64,000 bases of DNA, from positions 496,001-560,000 of the forward strand of contig NZ_JABUOU010000001.1 in the NCBI RefSeq assembly GCF_013344475.1, given 5' to 3'. A program made the translations under genes and the position numbers. Shown here piece by piece: positions 5,741 to 64,000 of this stretch; within the stretch, counting starts at the first letter, position 1, and each line of letters opens with the position of its first letter. Source of the stretch: Martelella limonii (GTDB taxonomy: Bacteria; Pseudomonadota; Alphaproteobacteria; Rhizobiales; Rhizobiaceae). The notes beneath the pieces are model-generated. The model did no database searches and was not told where the DNA came from. It was given only the letters and a program-made list of their open reading frames with translations.

Positions 5741-7213
5741 ATGAGCGCTTTCAAAATAGCCATTATCGGCGCCGGCAGCGTCGGTTTCACCAAGACGCTC
5801 TTCAAGGATATCCTGTGCGTGCCCGAGTTCGCGGGCATCGAGGTCGCACTGACCGATATCAGCGAAAAAAATCTCACGATGGTCAAAACCATCCTTGAGA
5901 AAATCGTTGAGGCGAACGGCCTGCCGACGAGGGTCACCGCGACCACGGACCGCCGCAAGGCGCTTGAAGGTGCGCGCTATGTGATCTCGTGCGTGCGGGT
6001 CGGCGGGCTTGAAGCCTATGCGGACGATATCCGCATTCCCTTGAAATATGGCGTCGACCAGTGCGTCGGCGACACGATCTGCGCGGGCGGCATCCTTTAC
6101 GGCCAACGCAACATTCCGGTGATCCTGGACTTCTGCAAGGATATCCGCGAGGTCGCCGAGCCGGGGGCCCGTCTGCTCAACTATGCCAATCCCATGGTGA
6201 TGAACACCTGGGCTGCGACGGAATACGGCAAGGTGGACACGATCGGTCTTTGCCACGGCGTCCAGCACGGGGCGGAGCAGATTGCCGAAGTGCTCGGCGC
6301 AGAGCCCGGTACGCTCGATTATATCTGCTCCGGCATCAATCATCAGACCTGGTTCACCGACCTGCGCGTCGACGGCCGCAAGATCGGGAAGGACGAGCTG
6401 ATCTCCGCCTTCGAGGCCCATCCGGTGTTCTCCAAGCAGGAGAAGGTTCGCATCGATGTTCTGAAGCGTTTCGGCGTCTATTCGACCGAAAGCAACGGCC
6501 ATCTTTCCGAATATCTCCCCTGGTATCGCAAGCGTCCTGAGGAGATCACCCGCTGGATCGACATGTCCGATTGGATCCATGGCGAGACCGGCGGCTATCT
6601 GCGTTACACGGCGGAAAACCGCAACTGGTTCGAGACCGAGTATGACGGCTTCCTTGCGGATGCAGCACAGCCGATCGACCCGAAGAAGCGCTCGAACGAA
6701 CATGCCAGCTATATTCTGGAAGGGCTGGAGACCGGCCGGGTATATCGCGGTCATTTCAACCGCAAGAACAATGGTGTGATTACCAATCTTCCGGACGACT
6801 GCATCATTGAATCGCCCGGTTTCGTGGACCGGTTCGGGCTCAACATGGTGGCTGGCATCACGCTGCCCGAGGCATGCGCGGCAACCTGCATGTCCTCGAT
6901 CAATGTGCAGCGCATGTCGGTTCATGCCGCGGTTACCGGTGATCTCGACCTGCTGAAGCTTGCGGTTCTGCACGATCCGCTGGTCGGCGCCGTCTGCACG
7001 CCCGAAGAGGTCTGGCAGATGGTCGATGAGATGGTCGTCGCCCAGGCCGCGTGGCTGCCGCAATATGCCGGTGCCATTGAAGGCGCGCGCGAGCGTCTTT
7101 CGAAGGCGACCGTCAAGACACGCGAATGGGACGGGGCCGCCCGCCGCCGGGTCCGCTCGGTAGAGGAGATGCGCGCGGAAAAGGAAGCCGAGCGCGCGGC
7201 GGCCAACGCCTGA
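5741..7213 (+). CDS. GH4-family glycosidase (alpha-galactosidase/alpha-galacturonidase type, AgaL1-like)
   Basis: NAD- and metal-dependent glycoside hydrolase of family GH4, 490 residues, cytoplasmic. The N-terminal Rossmann motif is IAIIGAGSVGFTKTL (residues 6-20). The NYANPMVMNTWA segment (about 147-158) and the presumed Mn ligands Cys171 (GLCHGVQHG) and His201 (GINHQTWF) are visible. The start at the ATG after GGAGGCG is preferred over an in-frame extension that overlaps the divergent regulator. The first CDS of an operon running through the ABC importer to a second GH4 enzyme, it likely hydrolyses an imported alpha-galactoside after uptake. GH4 members differ in specificity, and a uronide or another glycoside cannot be excluded. 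Confidence 0.88.
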   Translation: MSAFKIAIIGAGSVGFTKTLFKDILCVPEFAGIEVALTDISEKNLTMVKTILEKIVEANGLPTRVTATTDRRKALEGARYVISCVRVGGLEAYADDIRIPLKYGVDQCVGDTICAGGILYGQRNIPVILDFCKDIREVAEPGARLLNYANPMVMNTWAATEYGKVDTIGLCHGVQHGAEQIAEVLGAEPGTLDYICSGINHQTWFTDLRVDGRKIGKDELISAFEAHPVFSKQEKVRIDVLKRFGVYSTESNGHLSEYLPWYRKRPEEITRWIDMSDWIHGETGGYLRYTAENRNWFETEYDGFLADAAQPIDPKKRSNEHASYILEGLETGRVYRGHFNRKNNGVITNLPDDCIIESPGFVDRFGLNMVAGITLPEACAATCMSSINVQRMSVHAAVTGDLDLLKLAVLHDPLVGAVCTPEEVWQMVDEMVVAQAAWLPQYAGAIEGARERLSKATVKTREWDGAARRRVRSVEEMRAEKEAERAAANA

Positions 7214-11719: not shown

Positions 11720-13390
11720 ATGACTGATGAAATCGGACATGACACGGCGCCTGCCACACGGCGCGACCATGGCGAACAGCAGGGCGCGCCGATTATCGAT
11801 GCGCGCCATGTCGCCGTCGATATCGAAGTCGAGGACGGCACGGTCAATGCCGTGCGCGATGTCTCCTTTCAGCTCTATCGCGGGGAGACCATCGCGATCG
11901 TCGGCGAATCCGGCTCCGGAAAATCCGTCACCGCCCGCACCATCATGGGGCTGTTGCCAAAGCGGGCACGCGTCGGCAAGGGCGCAACAATCACCTATGA
12001 CGGCGCGGATGTGCTGAAGTTTTCCGAGAAGCAGCGCCGCCAGATGCGCGGCGCGCGGATATCGATGATCTTCCAGGAGCCGATGAGTTCGCTGAACCCG
12101 ATCTACACGATCGGTGCGCAGATCGTCGAGGCCATCCAGACCCATCGCCGCGTCAGCCGCAAGGATGCGGAGGCCGAGACGCTGGAACTTCTGAGGCAGG
12201 TGCAGATCCCCGAACCTGAAGCCCGGCTGAAGCAGTACCCGCACCAGCTTTCCGGCGGCCAGCGCCAGCGCGTCATGATCGCGATGGCGCTGGCCAACAA
12301 GCCGGACGTGCTGATTGCCGATGAACCGACGACCGCGCTCGACGTCACCGTTCAGGCGCAGATCCTCGGGCTCATCCGGGAGCTGCAGCTGGAGCTCGGC
12401 ATGGCCGTCATCCTCATCACCCACGACCTGACGGTGGTCAAGCACTTCTCGGACTATGTCTATGTGATGAGCAAGGGCGTGGTGCGCGAGCACAATACAA
12501 CGAAGGCGCTGTTTGCCGATCCGCGCCATCCTTACACGCAGAAGCTTCTGGGCTCCGAGCCATCCGGCGAGGCGAACGCGCTTCCCGAGGGATCGCCGAT
12601 GATACTGGAGGGCAGGGATGTGCGCGTCGCATTCACGCTGAAGACCGGCACATTCTTCAAGTCGAGCTACAGCGAGCTCCTGGCCGTCAACGATCTGTCG
12701 ATCGCCCTGCGCAAGCACGAGACCCTCGGGCTGGTGGGCGAAAGCGGGTCCGGCAAGACCACGTTCGGCCAGGCGCTGATGCGGCTGATCCATTCCGATG
12801 GCGGCGCGGTCCTGTTCGACGGCGAGCATATCGAAGGGCATTCGCGTGACCAGATGCGGCCGCTGCGTTCCCGTATGCAGGTGGTGTTCCAGGACCCGTT
12901 CTCATCGCTCAATCCGCGCATGACGATCGGCCAGATCATCGAGGAAGGGCTGATCGTCAACGGCATCGGGTCGTCCGGCAAGGACCGCAACGAGCGGGTG
13001 CGCGATGCACTTGTCGATGCCGGCCTGCCGGGCTCGATCACCCACCGGTTTCCGCACGAGTTTTCCGGCGGTCAGCGCCAGCGCATCGCCATTGCACGCG
13101 CGGTGGCGCTGGAGCCGGAATTCATCCTGCTCGATGAGCCGACCTCGGCGCTCGATCTTTCCGTCCAGGCCCAGATCATCGAGCTTCTGCGCAAGCTCCA
13201 GCGGGAACGGGGCCTGAGCTATCTCTTCATCTCGCATGACCTGAAGGTCGTGCGAGCGCTATGCCACCGTGTCTGCGTGATGCAGCACGGCCAAATCGTC
13301 GAACAGGGCCCGGTGCGCGATGTGCTGGAAAACCCGCAGACAGAATATACGAAGCGGCTGGTCAAGGCCGCTTTCGAAGTTGCCGCCTGA
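11720..13390 (+). CDS. ABC importer ATPase with two fused nucleotide-binding domains (OppD-OppF type)
   Basis: Cytoplasmic ATPase, 556 residues, carrying both nucleotide-binding domains in one chain. The first has Walker A GESGSGKS (62-69), signature LSGGQRQR and Walker [13 protein letters not shown]. The second has Walker A GESGSGKT (about 340), signature FSGGQRQR and [12 protein letters not shown]. Each domain ends with the oppD/F-type C-terminal extension ([22 protein letters not shown]). The ATG after GAAGGAG is chosen; an upstream in-frame start overlaps the permease gene. It powers the importer encoded just upstream and is followed, 17 bases later, by the second GH4 gene. Confidence 0.94.
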
Positions 13391-53778: not shown

Positions 53779-56700
53779 ATGGGCAATCACATTCTTCCGG
53801 CTATTGAAGCAGCATGCTCGCACAGGGGCGCTGCACCGCGCAACATGCGGGCGATGATGTTTGCCTCGGTATCCGCCGTCTGTCTACTGTCGTCGCCAAT
53901 GGCCCATGCGAATGGCTGCGATGAGAGTTCCGATCCCATTACCTGTACGTTCGGCTCCGGCACAGTATCCGGCAACCTTTTCTTGACGGCCGCTTCGGGA
54001 AGTTACGGTGACGACGGGGCTGCGATCAAGGTCACGCAGGACGGCGCGACGCAAGCGCTGAGCATCACCTCCGGCACGCATTATTCCGGATGGACGATGG
54101 GCTCTGCAGGTGCGGGCGGCGATGAAAACGGCGGTGCTGCCGGCGCCGGGGGCTGGATCGAGTTCGACAATATCGGCGGCTCGTTCAACGCAACCGCCAA
54201 CGTCACGGGGGGATACAATTTTGCGCCCCTGATCCGTATGGAAAGCATTGGTGGTTCGGGCAACCAGAACAACAACAATTACAAGTCCAGCGGCGGCGCC
54301 GGCGGTGCCGGCGGTGCGCTGACCTTCACGAGCAATTCCGGCACGACCTATACGCTCAACGGTTCCGCAAATGCCGGCTCGGCGATCCTTTACGCGCTCA
54401 CCATCGGCGGCGCGGGTGGCAATCAGAACAGCGGCTTGACCGAAGACCAGTATGGCGGGGTCGGCGGCGCGGGCGGTGCCATCACCTTCAGCGGTGATGG
54501 GGCGGGATCGGCCAATGTCGGTTCGTCATCGTCGCGCTTTTCCGGCATTGCCGATGGCGGCGGGTTCCTGGCCGAATCTGTCGCGGGCGGCGGCGGTTAC
54601 AGCAATGGCAATGCCGGCGCGGGCGGCACGATCTCGATATCCGGCATGCCATCGGTCTCGATCTACTGGAACGCGACCGGTGCGGGAAGCAGCGGGCTGT
54701 TCGGTCTGGGCGGCTTGAGCGTCGGCGGCGGCGGCTTCAACAACAGCAAGAATGATGCCTCGGATCCGGGCGGCGCGGGTGGCGCAGGCGGCAGCGTCAC
54801 GGTTGAGAGCAACAACGACATCGTTCTGGATGTTGCCGGCGCCACCCCCGGCGTCAGTGCGGCGATGTCGGCGCAGAGCATTGGCGGAATGGGCGGAACC
54901 GGCCCGACCAAGGACAAGCCCGGCGGCAATGGCGGCGCCGGCGGCGCCGTTGCGATTGGCAATAGCGGCGGAGCGATGTCGATCAGGACCGCCGGCGATT
55001 ATGTCTACGGCGTGATCGGCCAGAGCATCGGCGGCCAGGGCGGCGATGGCGGCGACGGGGCGGCGCTTGCTGGCCAGGGCGGCGGCGGCGGTTTTGGCGG
55101 CAATGGTGGCAGCGTTACCGTCAACTTCAGCAATGCCGGCACGCTCACCACAACCGGCGAACTGGCTGCGGGCATCGTTGCGCACTCGATCGGCGGCGGC
55201 GGCGGCACGGGCGGCGATTTCGTCAGCGTGCTTGGCGGCCAGGCGGGCAATGGCGGCAACGGCGGCGATGGCGGCAATGTGCTGGTGAGCAGCGACATGG
55301 CGATCACGACGGGCGGCGACAATGCCTTCGGCGTGGTGGCGCAGTCGATCGCCGGAAGCGGCGGCACGGGGGGCATCGACGTCTCCACCCTCGTCAGCCT
55401 GGGCGGCGATGGCGCGGGCGGCGGCACGCCCGGCAACGTCACCGTGAACTACCTCGCCGACATCACGACCGCCGGGTATAACGCGCTCGGCATCATCGCC
55501 CAATCGGTTGGCGGCGGCGGCGGCGCTGCCGGCTCCTCGTCGGGGCTGGTCAGCGTCGGCGGCAATGCGGCGGGCACCACAATCGCGAACGGCGGCACGG
55601 TCGGGGTTTCCAGTACCGCGAAGATTTCGACGGGCGGGGATTCCTCGATCGGCATTCTGGCCCAGTCGGTCGGCGGCGGCGGCGGATCGGGCGGGGATTC
55701 GCTCGGCATGGCCGGCGTTGGCGGCCAGGGCGAGGCTGGCGGCAGCGGCGGCACGGTTGCGGTTTCCAATCTCGGCGCCATCAGCACGGCAGGCGACTAT
55801 TCTCCCGGCGCGGTCCTGCAATCGGTCGGCGGCGGCGGCGGCAATGGCGGCTCGGTGCTGACGCTGTCGACTATAGCTTCGATCGGGCTTGGCGGCATGG
55901 CGTCGCAGGGGGGCGATGGCGGCACGATCTGCATAGACAATACCGCGCAGTGCGGTGAGCTTGATACCTCGACCTCCCAATTCACCGCCTATGACCCGGC
56001 GCTTGCCGCAGCGAGCGCGTCCGGGAATGCGGCCATCAGTACGCTCGGCGACTTTTCGCCGGGCATCATCGCCCAGTCGGTTGGCGGCGGCGGCGGCAAT
56101 GGCGGCAGCGCCAAGAACGACAGCGTCCTCTCGTTCTACGCGCTCCAGACCGGCGGCTTTGGCGGCGCGGGTGGAGCGGGCGGGGTGGTCTCCGTTCGGC
56201 AGAACAATCTCGATATCACGACGTCCGGCGCACAGGCTGCCGGCATCATCGCCCAGTCTGTCGGCGGCGGCGGCGGCACCGGCGGCAACGCCAGCTATTT
56301 CGATGCGTCGGTGGGTTTCAACGCGGCATTCATCCTCGGCGGCAGCGGCGGCACCGGCGGTTCAGGCAAGACCGTCACCGTTGACCTCAACAATGCAACG
56401 ATCTTGACCGGCGCGATCCTTCAGGATGGCCAGGCCAGCATTCCCGCGGATTCGCCCGGCATCATCGCCCAGTCGATCGGCGGCGGCGGCGGCAATGGCG
56501 GCTCGACCTCGGCCAAGGATTTCCTGATCGCGGCCCCGACCGGAACCGGCGTGCCGGTCGCATTCAATTACCAGTCGGCGCATGGCGGCAATGGCGGCAA
56601 TGCCGGCGATGGCGGCGATGTCGACATCAGCCTCGATTCCGCGACGCGGGTAACGACCATCGGCGATGGGTCGCACGGCATGCTGATCCAGTCGGTCGGC

Positions 56701-59700
56701 GGCGGCGGCGGCAATGGCGGGGATTCCTCCGTCCTGTCGACCACGCTTGGTGACAAGGATACGGTCGAACTGACGGCCAGCGTCGCCTTCGGCGGCGGTG
56801 CGGGCAATATCCTCGGCGATACTAGCCTCGGCGCGACAAATGTCGGCTATGTTTTCAAAACGTCCGGCGGCGGCAATGGCGGCGCGCTGGACGTTGTCCT
56901 GGGGAATACCGAGGCCGCGAATTCGACGGGAGACGCGACCACGCCGATAAGGGGCGCGACGCCTGAGGCCACGATCCTGACCTACAGCGATGCATCCTAC
57001 GGCATGCTCGCGCAATCGATCGGCGGCGGCGGCGGCAATGGCGGCATCGGCAACAGCAATGCCTATTCCCAGGGTGGCACCGCCTCGCTGAAGGCAGATA
57101 TCGGTCTTGGCGGCAAGGGCGGCAGTGGCGGCACCGGCGGCAGCGTGGTCATCACCGAAGGCGGCGATTTCAACATCCAGACGCAAGGGTCCGGCTCGCG
57201 CGGCATCGTCGGCCAGTCGATCGGCGGCGGTGGCGGCACATCGCAGGGCGGCACCCTCTATCTGGCCGGTGAGGCGGGAGATTATGACGGCCGGCTTGAT
57301 GTCGGTATTGGCCTCACGGGCGGCTCCGGCGGCGCGGGCGGCACGATTTCCGGCGCCATCAACGGCGGCGTCGAGACGTTCGGCGGCGACGCCGACGCGG
57401 TTGTTCTCCAGTCGATTGGCGGCGGCGGCGGTATTGGCGGCTCGCTCGGCAGCGATGCCTCCTCGCACAAGATCCTCGATCTTATCGGCAATATCGAGGA
57501 CCAGCTCGGGCGACTGACCGATTCCGGCAGCACCTATCAGCTTACGGTTTCCGTCGGCGGCAAGGGCGGCGAGGGCGGCGCCGGCAACGCCGTCGATCTC
57601 AGTCTCGGCGGCAAGGTCACCACCGTGGGCGACTGGTCCGATGGCGTGGTCCTGCAGTCGATCGGCGGCGGCGGCGGCCAGGGCGGCTCTTCTGTTGCAA
57701 CCGGCAGCGCGATCACGGCCAATGTCGAGGTCGGCGTCGGCGGCAAGGGCGGCAAGGGTGGTATTGGCGGCCCGGTCCAGTTCGATCTCTGGGGTGACAA
57801 CTATATCCACACCTATGGCTATGGCGCCTACGGCCTTCTGGCGCAGTCGATCGGCGGCGGCGGCGGGCAGGGCGGCGATGGCTCGGACAGCCAGACCGGA
57901 ACGCTTGCAATCGGTGGCGATGGCGGCGGTACCGGCGGCAGCGGCGGCGCGGGCGGAGCGATCTCCACGCTGGAAAGCATCACGCCCCATGTCGTCACCC
58001 ATGGTTCGGACGCGATCGGCATCGTCGCGCAGTCGGTTGGCGGCGGCGGCGGCCAGGGCGGCGTTGGCAGCAGCGCGTCCGGAACCCGTATCGACAGCGA
58101 CGTGATGAGCGTGACGATCGGCGGCAAGGGCGGGGTTGCCGGCGATGGCGGCACCATCGATCTCGAATTCGGTTCCGGAACCGATATCGCCACCGATGGC
58201 GACCGCTCCTTCGGCCTGTTGATGCAGTCGATCGGCGGCGGCGGCGGGATCGGCGTCACCGGAACGGCGAGCGGCGGCCTTGATATCACCATTGGCGGCT
58301 CAGGCGGCGCTGCCGGCAGCGGCAAGGCGATCACGTTCAACATGGCGGCCGATGACGGGCAGGGGATCAGCACCAGCGGTGCTGGCGCGCATGCGCTTGT
58401 TGCCCAGTCGATCGGCGGCGGCGGCGGTATTGGCGGCGACGCCACGGGCGGAATTCTGACGCTTCTACCATCCTATCCTTCGGGATCGACCGGTGCGAGC
58501 GGTGATGGCGATGTCATCAATCTGGCGCTCGACGGGGCGCTCGTGACCACCGGCGCGGATTCCTTCGGCATTCTCGCTCAGTCGCTCGGCGGCGGCGGCG
58601 GTTTCGGCGGCGAGGGCGCGGGCAGCGGCGCTGCCGGGCTTTCATCGACGGCAGCCTCCGGCACCGGCGGGCCTATCACGATCAATTCCGCCGCGTCGAT
58701 CTCGGCCACGGGCGCGCGCTCCATGGGCATTTTCGCCCAGAGTGAAGGCGCTTCCGGTAATGGCAGGGTCGGTATCACGCTCAGCAGTGACGGCATGGTG
58801 TCCGGTGGTCAGAGCAATAACGCGTCAGCGATCTGGGTCGTCGGCGGAACCGACAATGCGATCACGCTGACGGATACCGCGAGCATTCAATCCGGCGCGG
58901 CGGCGACCGGAAACCAGTACAGCAACAACTATGCCGTCCTGTTTTCCCAGAATGGCGCGTCGGGCAGTTCGTTGACCGTCAACAATACCGGCACCGGAAC
59001 GGTCAGCGGCAGCATCGGCGGCGATGTGCAAAACACCGATGACATAGCCATGTTCGTGAACAACGGCATCGGCGGCACGCTTTCGGACGGCTATATCTAC
59101 GATGCTGATATCGTCAATGCCGGCACGTTCGAGATCGGCCGGTTCCGCCAGCCCGGAACGACGGTCGTGTCTGGCAATTTCGAGCAGACCGCCACAGGCT
59201 GGCTGATCCCCGACATCGACCTGAACAACGCGAATGCCGACCTGTTTCGGATCGAGGGCGATGCCGCGCTTGACGGCACGCTCGGCCTCAATCCTATCAG
59301 TCTGCTTCCGAGCCGTTCGGCGCGGTTCCTGAGCGTTGCGGGCGCGGAAAGCGGCGAATTGACGCCGCGGGACTCGACCCTTTTCGACTACCGGATCGAC
59401 GCGATTGGCAACGACCGCTATTTCCGCGTGGCCGGCGCCGATTTCACTCCGAACCTTACGAATGATCTCAATCGCGATCAGCACGCGCTGGCCGGAACGC
59501 TTCAGAATATCTGGGATGCCGGCGGTAACGACGCCTTCGGCAGCCTGTTCGGCGCCTTTGCAAGCGAGACCGACGGCGCGCCGGAAAAATATGCCGGCAC
59601 GCTCGACGAGTTGCGCCCCCGCGCCGCCTTCGCCACGGCGGTGGAGCAGAGTTTCGAAATGCTGGAATTCGGCTCCAGCCTGATGAGCTGCCCGGAATTC

Positions 59701-60549
59701 GAGGGCGATAGCGTGACGGTGGAGGAGGGAAGTTGCGCCTGGGCATCTGTCTCCGGCAGCAATGACCGACGCGCCTCCGTCGCCAATGCGGCAAGCTACG
59801 ATCTCGACACCTTCACCTTCCAGTTCGGGGGGCAGAAGGAGTTCACGCCTGGCTGGTTCCTCGGCGGTTCGATCGCCTATCAGCAGAGCTGGCTGTCGCA
59901 GGACAGCGGCTCCGTCAGCGGCGATGGCGATGCGGGTTATGCCGGCGTCAGCCTGAAGCACGAGGTTGGCGGCTGGACCTTCGCCGGCGCGCTCGCCGCA
60001 AGCTATGGCAGCTATGATATCGACCGCGCGATCAACATTCCCTATGTGAACGAGGTCGTCTCAAGCTCTCCCGATGTTGCTGCCGGGTCGTTTACCGGGC
60101 GCATCTCGCGGATGATCGATGCCGACACCTTCTATCTGAAGCCCTACGTCGATCTCGACGCTGTCTACACCCATCAGAACGGCTACACCGAGAGCGGCGT
60201 CTATGGTCTGAGGATAGACGGCAACGGCCAGTGGAATTTCGCGGCCTCGCCGAACATCGAGATCGGCACGCGCTACAATTTCGACAGCGGCGAAACGCTG
60301 CGTCTCTACGGACGCCTCGGCATGACCGTGGTTTCGGGAGACGACTGGACGACGTCGGCCTCGTTCACCGGGTGGCAGGGTCAGAGCTTCCAGACCTCGC
60401 TCGATTACGACAATACATTTGCCACGGTGGCCGCGGGTTTCCAGCTCACGACGCTCAGGAATGTCGACCTGCGACTGGAATATGAGGGGCATTTCTCCGA
60501 GGAACTAACTTCGAGCGCCGGCAAGCTGCGCTTGAGCATGCCGTTCTAA
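53779..60549 (+). CDS. Giant glycine-rich autotransporter (type V secretion)
   Basis: Surface protein of 2256 residues. An extended signal region (residues 1-54; hydrophobic core MMFASVSAVCLLSSPMAHA near 26-45) is followed by a passenger of about 1900 residues. The passenger is built of imperfect repeats of 50-100 residues, each closing with a motif like AQSIGGGGGNGGS; about 17 copies have five consecutive glycines and a few more are degenerate. Such repeats should form a beta-helix with glycine-rich turns. The C-terminal autotransporter barrel covers about 1986-2256 and ends in SMPF, the Phe needed for outer-membrane assembly. No protease or lipase motif is seen, so adhesion or biofilm is the likely role. 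The ATG has GGAG nine bases upstream; an alternative at 53845 would shorten the leader. Divergent from the LytS/LytTR pair. Confidence 0.93.
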   Translation: MGNHILPAIEAACSHRGAAPRNMRAMMFASVSAVCLLSSPMAHANGCDESSDPITCTFGSGTVSGNLFLTAASGSYGDDGAAIKVTQDGATQALSITSGTHYSGWTMGSAGAGGDENGGAAGAGGWIEFDNIGGSFNATANVTGGYNFAPLIRMESIGGSGNQNNNNYKSSGGAGGAGGALTFTSNSGTTYTLNGSANAGSAILYALTIGGAGGNQNSGLTEDQYGGVGGAGGAITFSGDGAGSANVGSSSSRFSGIADGGGFLAESVAGGGGYSNGNAGAGGTISISGMPSVSIYWNATGAGSSGLFGLGGLSVGGGGFNNSKNDASDPGGAGGAGGSVTVESNNDIVLDVAGATPGVSAAMSAQSIGGMGGTGPTKDKPGGNGGAGGAVAIGNSGGAMSIRTAGDYVYGVIGQSIGGQGGDGGDGAALAGQGGGGGFGGNGGSVTVNFSNAGTLTTTGELAAGIVAHSIGGGGGTGGDFVSVLGGQAGNGGNGGDGGNVLVSSDMAITTGGDNAFGVVAQSIAGSGGTGGIDVSTLVSLGGDGAGGGTPGNVTVNYLADITTAGYNALGIIAQSVGGGGGAAGSSSGLVSVGGNAAGTTIANGGTVGVSSTAKISTGGDSSIGILAQSVGGGGGSGGDSLGMAGVGGQGEAGGSGGTVAVSNLGAISTAGDYSPGAVLQSVGGGGGNGGSVLTLSTIASIGLGGMASQGGDGGTICIDNTAQCGELDTSTSQFTAYDPALAAASASGNAAISTLGDFSPGIIAQSVGGGGGNGGSAKNDSVLSFYALQTGGFGGAGGAGGVVSVRQNNLDITTSGAQAAGIIAQSVGGGGGTGGNASYFDASVGFNAAFILGGSGGTGGSGKTVTVDLNNATILTGAILQDGQASIPADSPGIIAQSIGGGGGNGGSTSAKDFLIAAPTGTGVPVAFNYQSAHGGNGGNAGDGGDVDISLDSATRVTTIGDGSHGMLIQSVGGGGGNGGDSSVLSTTLGDKDTVELTASVAFGGGAGNILGDTSLGATNVGYVFKTSGGGNGGALDVVLGNTEAANSTGDATTPIRGATPEATILTYSDASYGMLAQSIGGGGGNGGIGNSNAYSQGGTASLKADIGLGGKGGSGGTGGSVVITEGGDFNIQTQGSGSRGIVGQSIGGGGGTSQGGTLYLAGEAGDYDGRLDVGIGLTGGSGGAGGTISGAINGGVETFGGDADAVVLQSIGGGGGIGGSLGSDASSHKILDLIGNIEDQLGRLTDSGSTYQLTVSVGGKGGEGGAGNAVDLSLGGKVTTVGDWSDGVVLQSIGGGGGQGGSSVATGSAITANVEVGVGGKGGKGGIGGPVQFDLWGDNYIHTYGYGAYGLLAQSIGGGGGQGGDGSDSQTGTLAIGGDGGGTGGSGGAGGAISTLESITPHVVTHGSDAIGIVAQSVGGGGGQGGVGSSASGTRIDSDVMSVTIGGKGGVAGDGGTIDLEFGSGTDIATDGDRSFGLLMQSIGGGGGIGVTGTASGGLDITIGGSGGAAGSGKAITFNMAADDGQGISTSGAGAHALVAQSIGGGGGIGGDATGGILTLLPSYPSGSTGASGDGDVINLALDGALVTTGADSFGILAQSLGGGGGFGGEGAGSGAAGLSSTAASGTGGPITINSAASISATGARSMGIFAQSEGASGNGRVGITLSSDGMVSGGQSNNASAIWVVGGTDNAITLTDTASIQSGAAATGNQYSNNYAVLFSQNGASGSSLTVNNTGTGTVSGSIGGDVQNTDDIAMFVNNGIGGTLSDGYIYDADIVNAGTFEIGRFRQPGTTVVSGNFEQTATGWLIPDIDLNNANADLFRIEGDAALDGTLGLNPISLLPSRSARFLSVAGAESGELTPRDSTLFDYRIDAIGNDRYFRVAGADFTPNLTNDLNRDQHALAGTLQNIWDAGGNDAFGSLFGAFASETDGAPEKYAGTLDELRPRAAFATAVEQSFEMLEFGSSLMSCPEFEGDSVTVEEGSCAWASVSGSNDRRASVANAASYDLDTFTFQFGGQKEFTPGWFLGGSIAYQQSWLSQDSGSVSGDGDAGYAGVSLKHEVGGWTFAGALAASYGSYDIDRAINIPYVNEVVSSSPDVAAGSFTGRISRMIDADTFYLKPYVDLDAVYTHQNGYTESGVYGLRIDGNGQWNFAASPNIEIGTRYNFDSGETLRLYGRLGMTVVSGDDWTTSASFTGWQGQSFQTSLDYDNTFATVAAGFQLTTLRNVDLRLEYEGHFSEELTSSAGKLRLSMPF

Positions 60550-60805: not shown

Positions 60806-60844
60806 TGAACCGCGCCGGTTTTGCCGGAGACCGTTTGGTTTAAG

Positions 60845-61750
60845 TCATGCGGCCAACGCTGGTGCGTCCAGCTTGGCATAGTATCGTTCTTCGGCCTCTG
60901 CGGGCGGAATGTTTCCGATCGGCTCCAGAAGGCGTCGGTTATTGAACCAGTCGACCCATTCGAGCGTTGCGAACTCTACGGCTTCGAAGTTGCGCCATGG
61001 ACCTCGCCGATGGATAACCTCCGCCTTGTAGAGCCCGTTGATCGTTTCTGCGAGAGCGTTGTCGTAACTGTCGCCAACACTTCCGACAGACGGTTCAATG
61101 CCTGCCTCTGCCAGCCGTTCGGAATAGCGAATAGATACGTATTGCACGCCGCGATCCGAGTGATGGATAAGGCCGCTACGATGAACGGGCTCTCGATTAT
61201 GAAGCGCCTGATCCAGAGCGTCGAGGACGAAGCTCGTATGGGCAGTGCGGCTTGCTCTCCAGCCGACAATGCGTCGTGCAAAAGCATCGATCACGAAAGC
61301 CACATAAACAAAGCCCTGCCATGTTGCGACATATGTGAAATCGGAAAGCCAGAGCATATTCGGAGCTGGTGCTTTGAAGTGACGATTGACCCGATCGAGC
61401 GGACATGGCGCGGTTGTGTCCGGCGTCGTTGTTCTGGGGGGCCTGCCTCGGATCACGCCTTGCAGCTCCATCGTCCTCATGAGCCGGGCGACAGTGCATC
61501 GGGCAATATCGAAGCCCTCGCGCTTTAACTGCCGCCAGACCTTGCGCACGCCATAAACCCGGAAATTCTCGTGGAACACGCGGCGTATCTCGATCTTCAT
61601 GGCCATGTCGCGTCGAGCGCGGACCGACAGGCGATCCACGTCAGTGCGCTTGGCAACGGCATCGTAGTAGGTGGATGGGGCAATCGGCAGAAGCCTGCAG
61701 ATCGGCTCGACCCCAAGTACGGAACGATGTTCATCGATGAAGGTGATCAT
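60845..61750 (-). CDS. IS3-family transposase OrfB (DDE integrase)
   Basis: Transposase catalytic subunit of 301 residues. An N-terminal HTH_21 region ([20 protein letters not shown]) precedes an rve integrase core with the DDE triad: Asp in WLSDFTYV, Asp in [10 protein letters not shown] and Glu in [11 protein letters not shown]. The C-terminus [19 protein letters not shown] is typical. Four bases overlap orfA, and a -1 programmed frameshift making an OrfAB fusion is expected for the family. Appears intact and potentially active. Confidence 0.94.
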
Positions 61751-62076
61751 CGCTTCAGTGAGCGGTCGAGCTCCGCCTGGGCAAAATACGCAGACGCCTT
61801 GCGCAAGATCTCGTTCGCCTGACGAAGCTCCCGGTTCTCGCGTTCCAAAGCCTTCATCTTCTCCGCGACATCGCTCGGTAAACCGGCCCGCTTGCCGCTA
61901 TCCACCTCAGCCCGCTTCACCCACTCATTGAGCGTATGTGCCGAGCAACCGATCTTTGCAGCTATCGAGGAAATGGTTGCCCACCGCGAGGGATGTTCGG
62001 CCTCGTGTTCCATCACCATCCGAACAGCCCGGGTGCGGACCTCTGGCGAATACTTATTGGTCGTCTTGCTTGTCAT
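61747..62076 (-). CDS. IS3-family transposase OrfA
   Basis: DNA-binding subunit of 109 residues: helix-turn-helix [20 protein letters not shown] and [20 protein letters not shown], then a leucine-zipper-like coiled coil ([20 protein letters not shown]). Its end overlaps orfB. Binds the terminal inverted repeats and dimerises. Intact in length and motifs. Confidence 0.93.
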
Positions 62077-62295
62077 AGACCCTACTTCTCATGAGTTGGG
62101 GTCTCCGGCAAACCCGGTGCGGTTCAGCTTCACGACACATCGCTTCCGAAACCAACCATTCCGTTTTCGGCGACTTTTCAGCATCTGCGCAGTGTGGGCC
62201 ATTCCAATTATAAAGACAAATGGTTGCAATAGCTAAAAGCAGACATCTGTCTCTCGGGAATTTTTCGTTATTGCTTTGGGACACACCATGTCAAT

Positions 62296-62937
62296 GTGGT
62301 AATGCTGCGTATGATTGGGGGGGGCATAAGGCAAGTGTTACAAATTTTGACATATGTTTTGAATGAGAATCTATCGCGCGTCGACAATCTCATCTCCCTA
62401 TACGGTCCCGCAACTCCTGGTCGCCGCAAAGTAAAGGACACCGATGTTTTACGTGCGGCTGTGGTGCTTCTACATGCGGGTCTCGAGGATTTTTTGCGTG
62501 GGCTTATGATATGGAAAATCGATACATACAGCTCAGCGACCCTAGACAGTTATGCGATTCCAAACGGCACTAGAAGACCGCCGGCTAAAATCTCTTTGGG
62601 TGACTTGGCCTCTCACAAAGGAAAAACAGTCGATGAGCTAATCGTCGAATCGGTGCGAGCGCATCTAGATGAATACCAAAGCTTCAATGATTTGGGTGAG
62701 GTTAAGAAAGCGCTGAAGCAATGTGGAATCCCAGCGGATTCAGTTGAAGCTGAAAATTTTTTCGGGTTGCCGGAGCTTATCGCGAGGCGGCATAACATTG
62801 TACATAAAGCGGATAGGAACTCGGTCGCTGGTGGGCAAGGTAACCATCGAACCAAGTCGCTAGGAATAGGAGCAGTGAAAGCCTACCTGGAATCAGTTCA
62901 AAGCCTTCGCGATTTTGTAGTTCAACACCTAAACTGA
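62296..62937 (+). CDS. HEPN-domain protein (probable RNase-type defence or toxin protein)
   Basis: Protein of 213 residues, mostly alpha-helical. A C-terminal HEPN-type motif R-x4-H is seen as Arg165 to His170 in ARRHNIVHKADR, and an N-terminal helix contains LRAAVVLLHAGLEDFLRGL, as in RiboL-PSP/MAE-type HEPN proteins. HEPN proteins are commonly metal-independent RNases in toxin-antitoxin, CRISPR and abortive-infection systems. No partner antitoxin is visible. The GTG start is from the longest frame; ATGs at 62302 and 62311 are alternatives. Codon use and base composition are AT-richer than in the rest of the window. It lies between the IS element and the mCpol gene (119-base gap) and may belong to the same defence patch, though a functional link is not shown. 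Confidence 0.65.
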   Translation: MVMLRMIGGGIRQVLQILTYVLNENLSRVDNLISLYGPATPGRRKVKDTDVLRAAVVLLHAGLEDFLRGLMIWKIDTYSSATLDSYAIPNGTRRPPAKISLGDLASHKGKTVDELIVESVRAHLDEYQSFNDLGEVKKALKQCGIPADSVEAENFFGLPELIARRHNIVHKADRNSVAGGQGNHRTKSLGIGAVKAYLESVQSLRDFVVQHLN

Positions 62938-63056: not shown

Positions 63057-63470
63057 ATGCAGCTGAGCGGAGAAACTGAAGTGAATACGACTTACATTAC
63101 AATCGATGGTGACGACATCGGTCAAAAAATCTCAGCGTGTTACTTTCGTAATGACAGTGAGGCACTTCTCGACCTCAACAGATCAATCGAAAACATTGTA
63201 GCCCACATTGCCACGCTCCTAGAGGACCAAGGCTACGTGGTGATTTTTTCCGCAGCTGACGGCGTAACAGCATTTTCTACTTCTCCTATCCTCTCGAACG
63301 CAGAGCTTTACGGTGAAATCAGCAAGATCGGAGGGAAGCAGTTAACTTTCTCAGCTGGCGTCGGGGCGACTTTAAGAGAGGCATACATAGCACTTCTAAC
63401 ATCAAAGAGTAACGGAAAGGCGCAATTAACAGCATATAGCGAGCTCGATAAAATATGTTCAGAGTATTAA
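63057..63470 (+). CDS. Minimal CRISPR polymerase (mCpol) nucleotide cyclase, OptS-like
   Basis: Small Palm-domain nucleotide cyclase of 137 residues (129 if the GTG at 63081, which has GGAG eight bases upstream, is used). ITIDGDDIGQKI (residues 14-25) supplies the first metal-binding acidic cluster. FSAADGVTAF (64-73) takes the place of the GGDD hairpin of Cas10. FSAGVGATLREAYIAL with SKSNGKAQ near the end matches the AK-x-x-GKN end of Cas10/GGDEF palms. Such stand-alone Cas10-like palms are the mCpol family, predicted by comparative genomics to make cyclic nucleotides. The next gene overlaps by 16 bases and encodes a two-TM beta-rich effector, the pairing that defines the Panoptes anti-phage system. 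Confidence 0.85.
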   Translation: MQLSGETEVNTTYITIDGDDIGQKISACYFRNDSEALLDLNRSIENIVAHIATLLEDQGYVVIFSAADGVTAFSTSPILSNAELYGEISKIGGKQLTFSAGVGATLREAYIALLTSKSNGKAQLTAYSELDKICSEY

Positions 63471-64000
63471 ATTTTATAACATTAATACGATACGTTGCTG
63501 TTTCTGCGTCCGTAATTAGCGTCGGACTCTATGAGTTACTCAGAAATTATTTAATTTCAGATCTACCAATAATAAGAATACTTAGCATAACTCCGTGGGC
63601 CGTGATATTAGTAATATTTTTAATTACAAATAAAAAGATTTCTAGATTTGTCTGGGCTATCTTTAGAAGATTCAACAGGTCTCTCTACCCTGATCTCAAC
63701 GGAACATGGCGCGGAGAAATTATAATCGAAGGGGGCAAGACAATAGAAGCTAGGGCCATCATAAGGCAAACGTTGATGCAGACCCAAATCGATCTTCATA
63801 CTGCTACAACGAAATCTCTAACACTGGAGACCACACCAGCCGAAGAGAGCGGACAATTGAAACTATATTATAGTTATAGGTCTACACCTAAGAATATTGA
63901 ATGGAGTACCTATACTGGATCGACGGTTTTTGACGTCAGGGCGGCAACGGAAGAGCCCGAGCGTGCTCTTGAGTTATCAGGTTACTATTTCACGGATCGA
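63455..64000 (+). CDS. Two-TM beta-rich effector (S-2TMbeta/Cap15-like, OptE-like), cut by window end
   Basis: The frame opens at an ATG inside the end of the mCpol gene and runs 182 codons to the last base without a stop. It starts MFRVLNFITLIRYVAVSASV. TM1 is about residues 8-30, TM2 about 44-62 (ITPWAVILVIFLI). A short basic linker (KKISRFVWAIFRRFNRS) leads to DLNGTWRGEIII, the start of a beta-rich domain like the Cap15 beta-barrel that binds cyclic dinucleotides. This is the SMODS-associated 2TM, beta-strand-rich effector architecture. Next to mCpol it corresponds to OptE of Panoptes, thought to be held inactive by the cyclase product and to damage the inner membrane when phage sponges remove that product. 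The C-terminus lies outside the window. Confidence 0.82.
   Translation, partial: MFRVLNFITLIRYVAVSASVISVGLYELLRNYLISDLPIIRILSITPWAVILVIFLITNKKISRFVWAIFRRFNRSLYPDLNGTWRGEIIIEGGKTIEARAIIRQTLMQTQIDLHTATTKSLTLETTPAEESGQLKLYYSYRSTPKNIEWSTYTGSTVFDVRAATEEPERALELSGYYFTDR

Follow-up and report, generated by a model that had tools for sequence, protein, structure and literature searches.

What do two overlapping genes at the right-hand end of a 64,000-nucleotide stretch of Martelella limonii DNA encode, and which defence might they guard? The stretch (the window) covers positions 496001–560000 of its contig. A first-pass annotation, made from the letters alone, had described the genes as a small cyclase of the mCpol (minimal CRISPR polymerase) type followed by a Cap15-like effector with two transmembrane helices and a beta-rich domain (S-2TM-beta), the pairing known as Panoptes. 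Judged from sequence comparisons and structure models, we assign a probability of about 0.9 to the reading that the locus is a Panoptes (optSE) anti-phage operon adjoining a type II operon of the cyclic oligonucleotide-based antiphage signalling system (CBASS).

The optSE gene pair and its CBASS neighbour

Positions beyond the window end are given in the right-hand contig stretch L002, where the L002 position equals the window position minus 58000; the identity of the two over their shared 6 kb was checked. The pair is laid out as follows.

63081..63470, + strand: optS, mCpol cyclic-dinucleotide synthase (Pfam, NCBIfam and PDB matches)
63455..64000 in the window, continuing to contig position 560069, + strand: optE, S-2TM-beta (Cap15-like) membrane effector of 204 amino acids
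63455..63470, + strand: 16-base overlap of optS and optE (open-reading-frame list)

The frames, the motifs ITIDGDDIG, FSAADGV and DLNGTWRG, and the overlap were all found where the first-pass annotation had placed them; its gene ends needed revision. At its longest, the first frame spans 63057–63470 (+) and holds the first two motifs, giving the annotated 137 residues from ATG 63057, but an in-frame GTG at 63081 is preceded, 8 bases upstream, by GGAG (63069–63072), and OptS relatives start nearby, so a protein of 129 residues is more likely. The annotated interval, 63057..64000, ended merely where the window does; the second frame, which holds DLNGTWRG, runs on to a stop at L002:6069 (contig 560069, window-equivalent 64069). 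The overlap makes translational coupling of the two genes possible. A promoter and terminator scan around optSE returned no more sites than shuffled sequence did.

Profile searches of both proteins matched the expected families. OptS passed the cut-offs of Pfam mCpol PF18182 (4.1e-24) and NCBIfam mCpol NF033576 (1e-37), and its only PDB matches at E ≤ 0.01 were Panoptes OptS 9mnr (2.8e-26) and mCpol 9nwn (3.6e-26). Cas10 palm gave a weak Pfam match below cut-off (0.0043), and no GGDEF family matched at E ≤ 1 in the Pfam search, which argues against an ordinary GGDEF protein or one without the Palm core. The Palm-domain cyclase fold is shared with type III CRISPR Cas10 and GGDEF cyclases (PMC12657218; this paper and PMC12657230 are cited here from their main texts), from which OptS differs in being a single small domain without a GGDEF family match. 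The optE product matched Pfam Cap15_CD_rec (9.7e-19) and a PADLOC profile, is 44% identical to a Rahnella protein, and has two hydrophobic segments (residues 7–25 and 39–57). Its AlphaFold model places helices at 7–32, 39–58 and 60–73, then eight strands over 83–194; the Cap15-like barrel sought in the full-length effector is present in this model.

Alignment of OptS with the Klebsiella enzyme (KpOptS; about 43% identity) located the catalytic and base-contacting positions. Residue numbers are counted from GTG 63081, with KpOptS equivalents 6, 30, 34 and 57 for Asp9, Asn33, Glu37 and Asp60.

63105..63107, + strand: Asp9 codon, equivalent of catalytic KpOptS Asp6 (alignments)
63177..63179, + strand: Asn33 codon, equivalent of KpOptS Ser30, the base-selectivity position (alignments)
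63189..63191, + strand: Glu37 codon, equivalent of adenine-contacting KpOptS Asn34 (alignments)
63258..63260, + strand: Asp60 codon, equivalent of catalytic KpOptS Asp57 (alignments)

Asp6 and Asp57 are the catalytic residues of KpOptS (PMC12657218; Asp57 also PMC12657230), and both aspartates, required for Panoptes membership, are present in the window protein.

Comparison with other mCpol loci disclosed a conserved gene order. The 24 loci comprise the window, 21 from a contig scan with a three-sequence mCpol alignment, one plasmid and one Escherichia coli region, the last being the one examined among 18 of 5426 E. coli genomes that matched mCpol. In 17 of them (the window, L014–L028 and L064) mCpol has an S-2TM-beta gene beside it. 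In 16 of these 17, optS precedes optE and the two either overlap or are separated by no more than 12 bases; in L028 the genes are divergent. For L015, L017, L024 and L026 the optE start was set at the conserved M[FY]R and not at the longest frame.

Directly downstream of optE, past the window end, lies a set of CBASS genes with open frames.

L002:6395 to about 6949, opposite to optSE: Cap3 (JAB; PADLOC JAB 6.6e-41)
L002:6946–8739, opposite to optSE: Cap2 (E1-E2; PADLOC E1-E2 3.4e-166)
L002:8723–10006, opposite to optSE: DncV-like CD-NTase (cGAS/DncV-like nucleotidyltransferase; NCBIfam NF041078)
L002:10170–10925, divergent from the preceding three genes: second S-2TM-beta effector, Cap15-like (PADLOC 2TM effector 1.1e-101)

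The CD-NTase passes NF041078, 'CBASS cGAMP synthase', with 278 bits against a cut-off of 150 and matches DncV structures in the PDB; when aligned to 4xj6, a VC0179-like protein, it retains the acidic motifs, which we take to be catalytic. Cap2 matches solved Cap2 chains (best 1.1e-9), while the NCBIfam match of Cap3 falls under its cut-off (43 against 200 bits). With CD-NTase, Cap2, Cap3 and effector together, the neighbour has the makeup of type II CBASS, and by its sequence the locus combines Panoptes with type II CBASS. This CBASS is probably the defence that OptSE guards.

A CBASS CD-NTase was found in the examined DNA at 13 of the 17 optSE loci, a lower bound, the search being biased to the DncV type and some contigs ending near the genes; PADLOC identified two of seven further proteins as CD-NTases best matching other models. 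A second S-2TM-beta gene is present at nine of the 17. In agreement with these counts, CBASS nucleotidyltransferases are reported at 89 of 109 Panoptes loci (PMC12657230), and the coupled CBASS carries S-2TM-beta effectors and Ub-like genes (PMC12657218). The pairing is already in print, and this locus adds one more example to a known system. It shares with the Panoptes of both papers the two-gene order, the catalytic Asp pair, an S-2TM-beta protein with a Cap15-type barrel and the CBASS neighbour, and its OptE falls in one clade with an E. coli OptE; it differs in having Asn/Glu in place of Ser/Asn at the base-contacting positions and in a host family without another mCpol in our sample.

By analogy with homologues, OptS, a Cas10-like mini-cyclase, would make a cyclic dinucleotide constantly. 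Bound in the OptE beta-barrel, this nucleotide would keep the two-helix membrane protein from oligomerising. A phage that blocks CBASS by sequestering or cleaving cyclic dinucleotides would also remove the OptS product, and freed OptE would then oligomerise and break the inner membrane, the cell dying before phage release. Two related membrane effectors would thereby lie a few kb apart, one expected to be held off and the other switched on by cyclic dinucleotides.

OptE lineage and alternative readings

To place OptE among related effectors, we built a tree of 48 S-2TM-beta rows with 200 bootstrap trees. Six sequences were left out: the OptE of L021 (123-amino-acid frame), L082 (89 amino acids), L078 (490 amino acids), L091 (same ending and score as L090), and L070 and L083, which repeat the window's own two genes. 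The 16 mCpol-adjacent effectors formed one side of a branch (support 100/97, 100% of bootstraps), apart from the 32 other rows. Window OptE lies inside this clade as sister to five alphaproteobacterial OptE (97/95), and the clade takes in the E. coli OptE of L064, which adjoins Hachiman. The experimentally tested ECOR31 Panoptes system also adjoins Hachiman (PMC12657230); the likeness of L064 to it lies in this neighbour and is not a sequence comparison. The window's second S-2TM-beta protein falls outside the OptE clade, beside the effector of a Sulfitobacter plasmid, and CBASS Cap15 effectors (PDB 7n34/7n35 and L002:10170–10925) occupy a branch separate from OptE.

Several observations weigh against the Panoptes reading. 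OptS is just 43–50% identical to KpOptS and four alphaproteobacterial relatives, and its base-contacting residues differ. A search for mCpol in 394 genomes of the family found it in the own genome only, so the host group offers no argument for recent selection. In a smaller tree of 25 rows OptE was not one group (2 changes; 1 change in 26% of bootstraps), so its monophyly depends on sampling. Finally, a gene upstream of optS could belong to the unit.

62296–62937, + strand: RiboL-PSP-HEPN gene (Pfam 1.1e-7, above cut-off)

If so, optSE would be part of a three-gene unit in which the HEPN protein is a second effector or a regulator. The gene lies on the same strand, 119–143 bases upstream of optS, and the two share a low GC content at third codon positions (GC3; 0.463 and 0.462); mCpol is known to occur with linked HEPN genes in some cases (PMC12657218). 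However, a search of 22 other mCpol loci (phmmer E ≤ 1e-3) found no homologue, and we set the gene aside as a Panoptes part and regard the three-gene unit as very unlikely.

Still less probable is that the locus has decayed or is inactive, riding along as a silent, outwardly intact remnant of a mobile island beside an insertion sequence (IS). Consistent with this would be its rarity in the family, the IS3-family element on its left and its composition: GC3 is 0.385–0.463 in the Panoptes and HEPN genes (optE 0.385), compared with 0.557–0.614 in the CBASS genes and 0.56–0.78 in the CBASS genes and flanks combined. Against it, optS and optE are open frames that retain the catalytic positions and the OptE tail, and the CBASS genes, likewise open, match family models.

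The least credible alternative is normal CBASS polarity, in which the OptS product would switch OptE on as an extra CBASS-like arm and not an inhibited guard: Cap15 relatives are nucleotide-activated and this polarity is left open for other mCpol-linked effectors (PMC12657218), and the same locus has a Cap15-like CBASS effector, but OptE groups with the mCpol-adjacent effectors, including the Hachiman-side E. coli one, and mCpol is active without further stimulus (PMC12657230).

OptS base contacts and the OptE ending

For the Panoptes reading, the two departures from the studied enzymes concern the nucleotide that OptS would make. At the position of KpOptS Asn34, Asp or Glu is present in the window protein and six alphaproteobacterial relatives (7 of 7), compared with one of 17 other rows; for some of these relatives' records we assume membership in the Alphaproteobacteria. 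Since the base-contacting residues are Asn/Glu and not Ser/Asn, base specificity probably differs from that of the E. coli and Klebsiella enzymes. A carboxylate could accept a hydrogen bond from adenine or guanine, so residue 34 alone would not predict the product. With Ser and Asn exchanged at position 30, the product shifts between 2',3'-c-di-AMP and 3',2'-cGAMP (PMC12657218). A figure in PMC12657230 deals, according to its legend, with how conserved both positions are in 163 mCpol proteins, and their variability may already be in print there. The alphaproteobacterial substitutions point to a decoy nucleotide that may differ between lineages, and such differences would bear on which phage sponges set off the alarm.

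A side observation concerns OptE residue 116 (window Thr116, codon 63800–63802): Gly accompanies Ser at OptS position 30 in 4 of 4 rows and Thr accompanies Asn, Lys or Arg in 10 of 10, counts that exclude cyanobacterial L028 (Ile) and truncated L021. Both trees unite the Ser rows in one clade, so a single change may account for the pattern, and this covariation was not used as evidence.

The extreme C-terminus of OptE is strikingly uniform. In each of the 16 complete OptE examined, precisely 16 residues follow the GR[IV] motif, the last two being Phe/Tyr-Tyr, and 15 of them end in [DE][VI]S[FY]Y (DVSYY in the window), the exception being cyanobacterial L028 with DYEFY. This type of ending was absent from the 35 other S-2TM-beta rows sampled (nine from the same loci, 17 from an order sample, six from phylum and class samples, and three viral, two of these with the same ending and score), several of which carry other extensions past the barrel. 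The CBASS Cap15 effectors lack the DVSYY that closes the 16 residues past GR[IV] in OptE. In the AlphaFold model the OptE tail is irregular and not a strand, and the Cap15 structure alignment stops at residue 193. The effector at L002:10170–10925 is modelled to end in a helix (238–250), after helices and then eight strands past residue 84; this model, built with five sequences, is rough (mean pLDDT 67.6, a per-residue confidence; pTM, the predicted template-modelling score, 0.57) and was not used for fold comparison.

An invariant ending suggests a fixed contact, and the tail is a small, removable candidate for the element that inverts the effector response; since OptE is one clade, it could equally be a shared relic. 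The inverted response has been put down to 'subtle differences in the protein' (PMC12657218). In that main text, without supplements, C-terminal, C terminus, carboxy and tyrosine are absent and 'tail' occurs once, of a triphosphate; in the main text of PMC12657230, again without supplements, 'C-terminal' occurs three times, never about such a tail, and C terminus, tail and tyrosine are absent. Tentatively, we put forward a joint proposal that is unlikely to hold in all its parts: the tail would invert the response, so that the empty protein oligomerises and the nucleotide-bound one does not, would have arisen once with the OptE clade, and OptS with Asn/Glu would make a guanine-containing decoy closer to the cyclic GMP-AMP (cGAMP) expected from the DncV-like CBASS.

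Module exchange and genomic setting

A comparable arrangement came from Sulfitobacter sp. CB2047 plasmid pSpoCB-3 (NZ_CP072616.1), where OptSE also stands beside a DncV-like CBASS with a Cap15-like effector, although the CBASS block is in the opposite orientation. Its CBASS proteins are 76% (CD-NTase), 70% (effector), 56% (Cap2) and 55% (Cap3) identical to those next to the window, compared with 50% for OptS and 57% for OptE. For OptSE the plasmid is instead close to Yoonia (84/88% identity), yet the Yoonia CD-NTase and effector share only 33/30% with the plasmid's. Because OptSE and CBASS identities point to different relatives, the simplest reading is that the two modules were re-paired independently, which fits the many co-association events proposed in print (PMC12657230).

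The first-pass annotation had also proposed an IS-bounded island, which the sequence seen does not support.

60806–62126: IS3-family element, intact-looking, with 27-nt inverted ends (93% complementary; family assigned by eye from two frames)

This is a single element on the left of the locus, with no second copy on the contig; other copies lie on contigs C38 (79%) and C11 (70%), with fragments on C39, and on the right other IS families were not searched. A stretch of about 10 kb lacks blastn homology in the examined regions of four relatives: left-flank homology, common to two of them, stops at L002:2547, and right-flank homology, common to the other two, starts at 12557. No relative with the two flanks adjoining was found, so insertion boundaries are not fixed. 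A tRNA as insertion site was rejected, L002 containing none.

Across the phylum sample, PF18182 matched at E ≤ 0.001 in 9 of 398 genomes. Besides the own genome there were nine matches in eight genomes, in frames of 478–643 amino acids with two of nine above cut-off, which we take to be Cas10. OptS was found neither in phages nor in IMG/VR viral contigs.

Other mCpol loci showed departures from the two-gene plan. The optE of Veronia pacifica (L021, 2050–2421) stops at 123 amino acids, before the barrel end, with its optS open alongside; this may reflect a sequencing error or an effector that has been disarmed. In Methanosarcinales (L029, L030 and L031), mCpol frames of 150–168 amino acids have no S-2TM-beta neighbour that we found, and each adjoins a convergent frame of 495–510 amino acids; that of L029, the only one tested, is a CobB/CobQ-type amidotransferase. 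In Saprospiraceae (L033), mCpol is followed by a 266-amino-acid protein (5766–6563) with a weak Csm6 HEPN match (4.4e-4, below cut-off).

Farther left in the window, 53779–60549 (+) encodes a glycine-rich, repetitive protein of 2256 amino acids, autotransporter-like by eye. When a 4-kb stretch was used as query, two of the 12 other genomes in the genus had DNA homologues covering it in full, at 75–77% identity.
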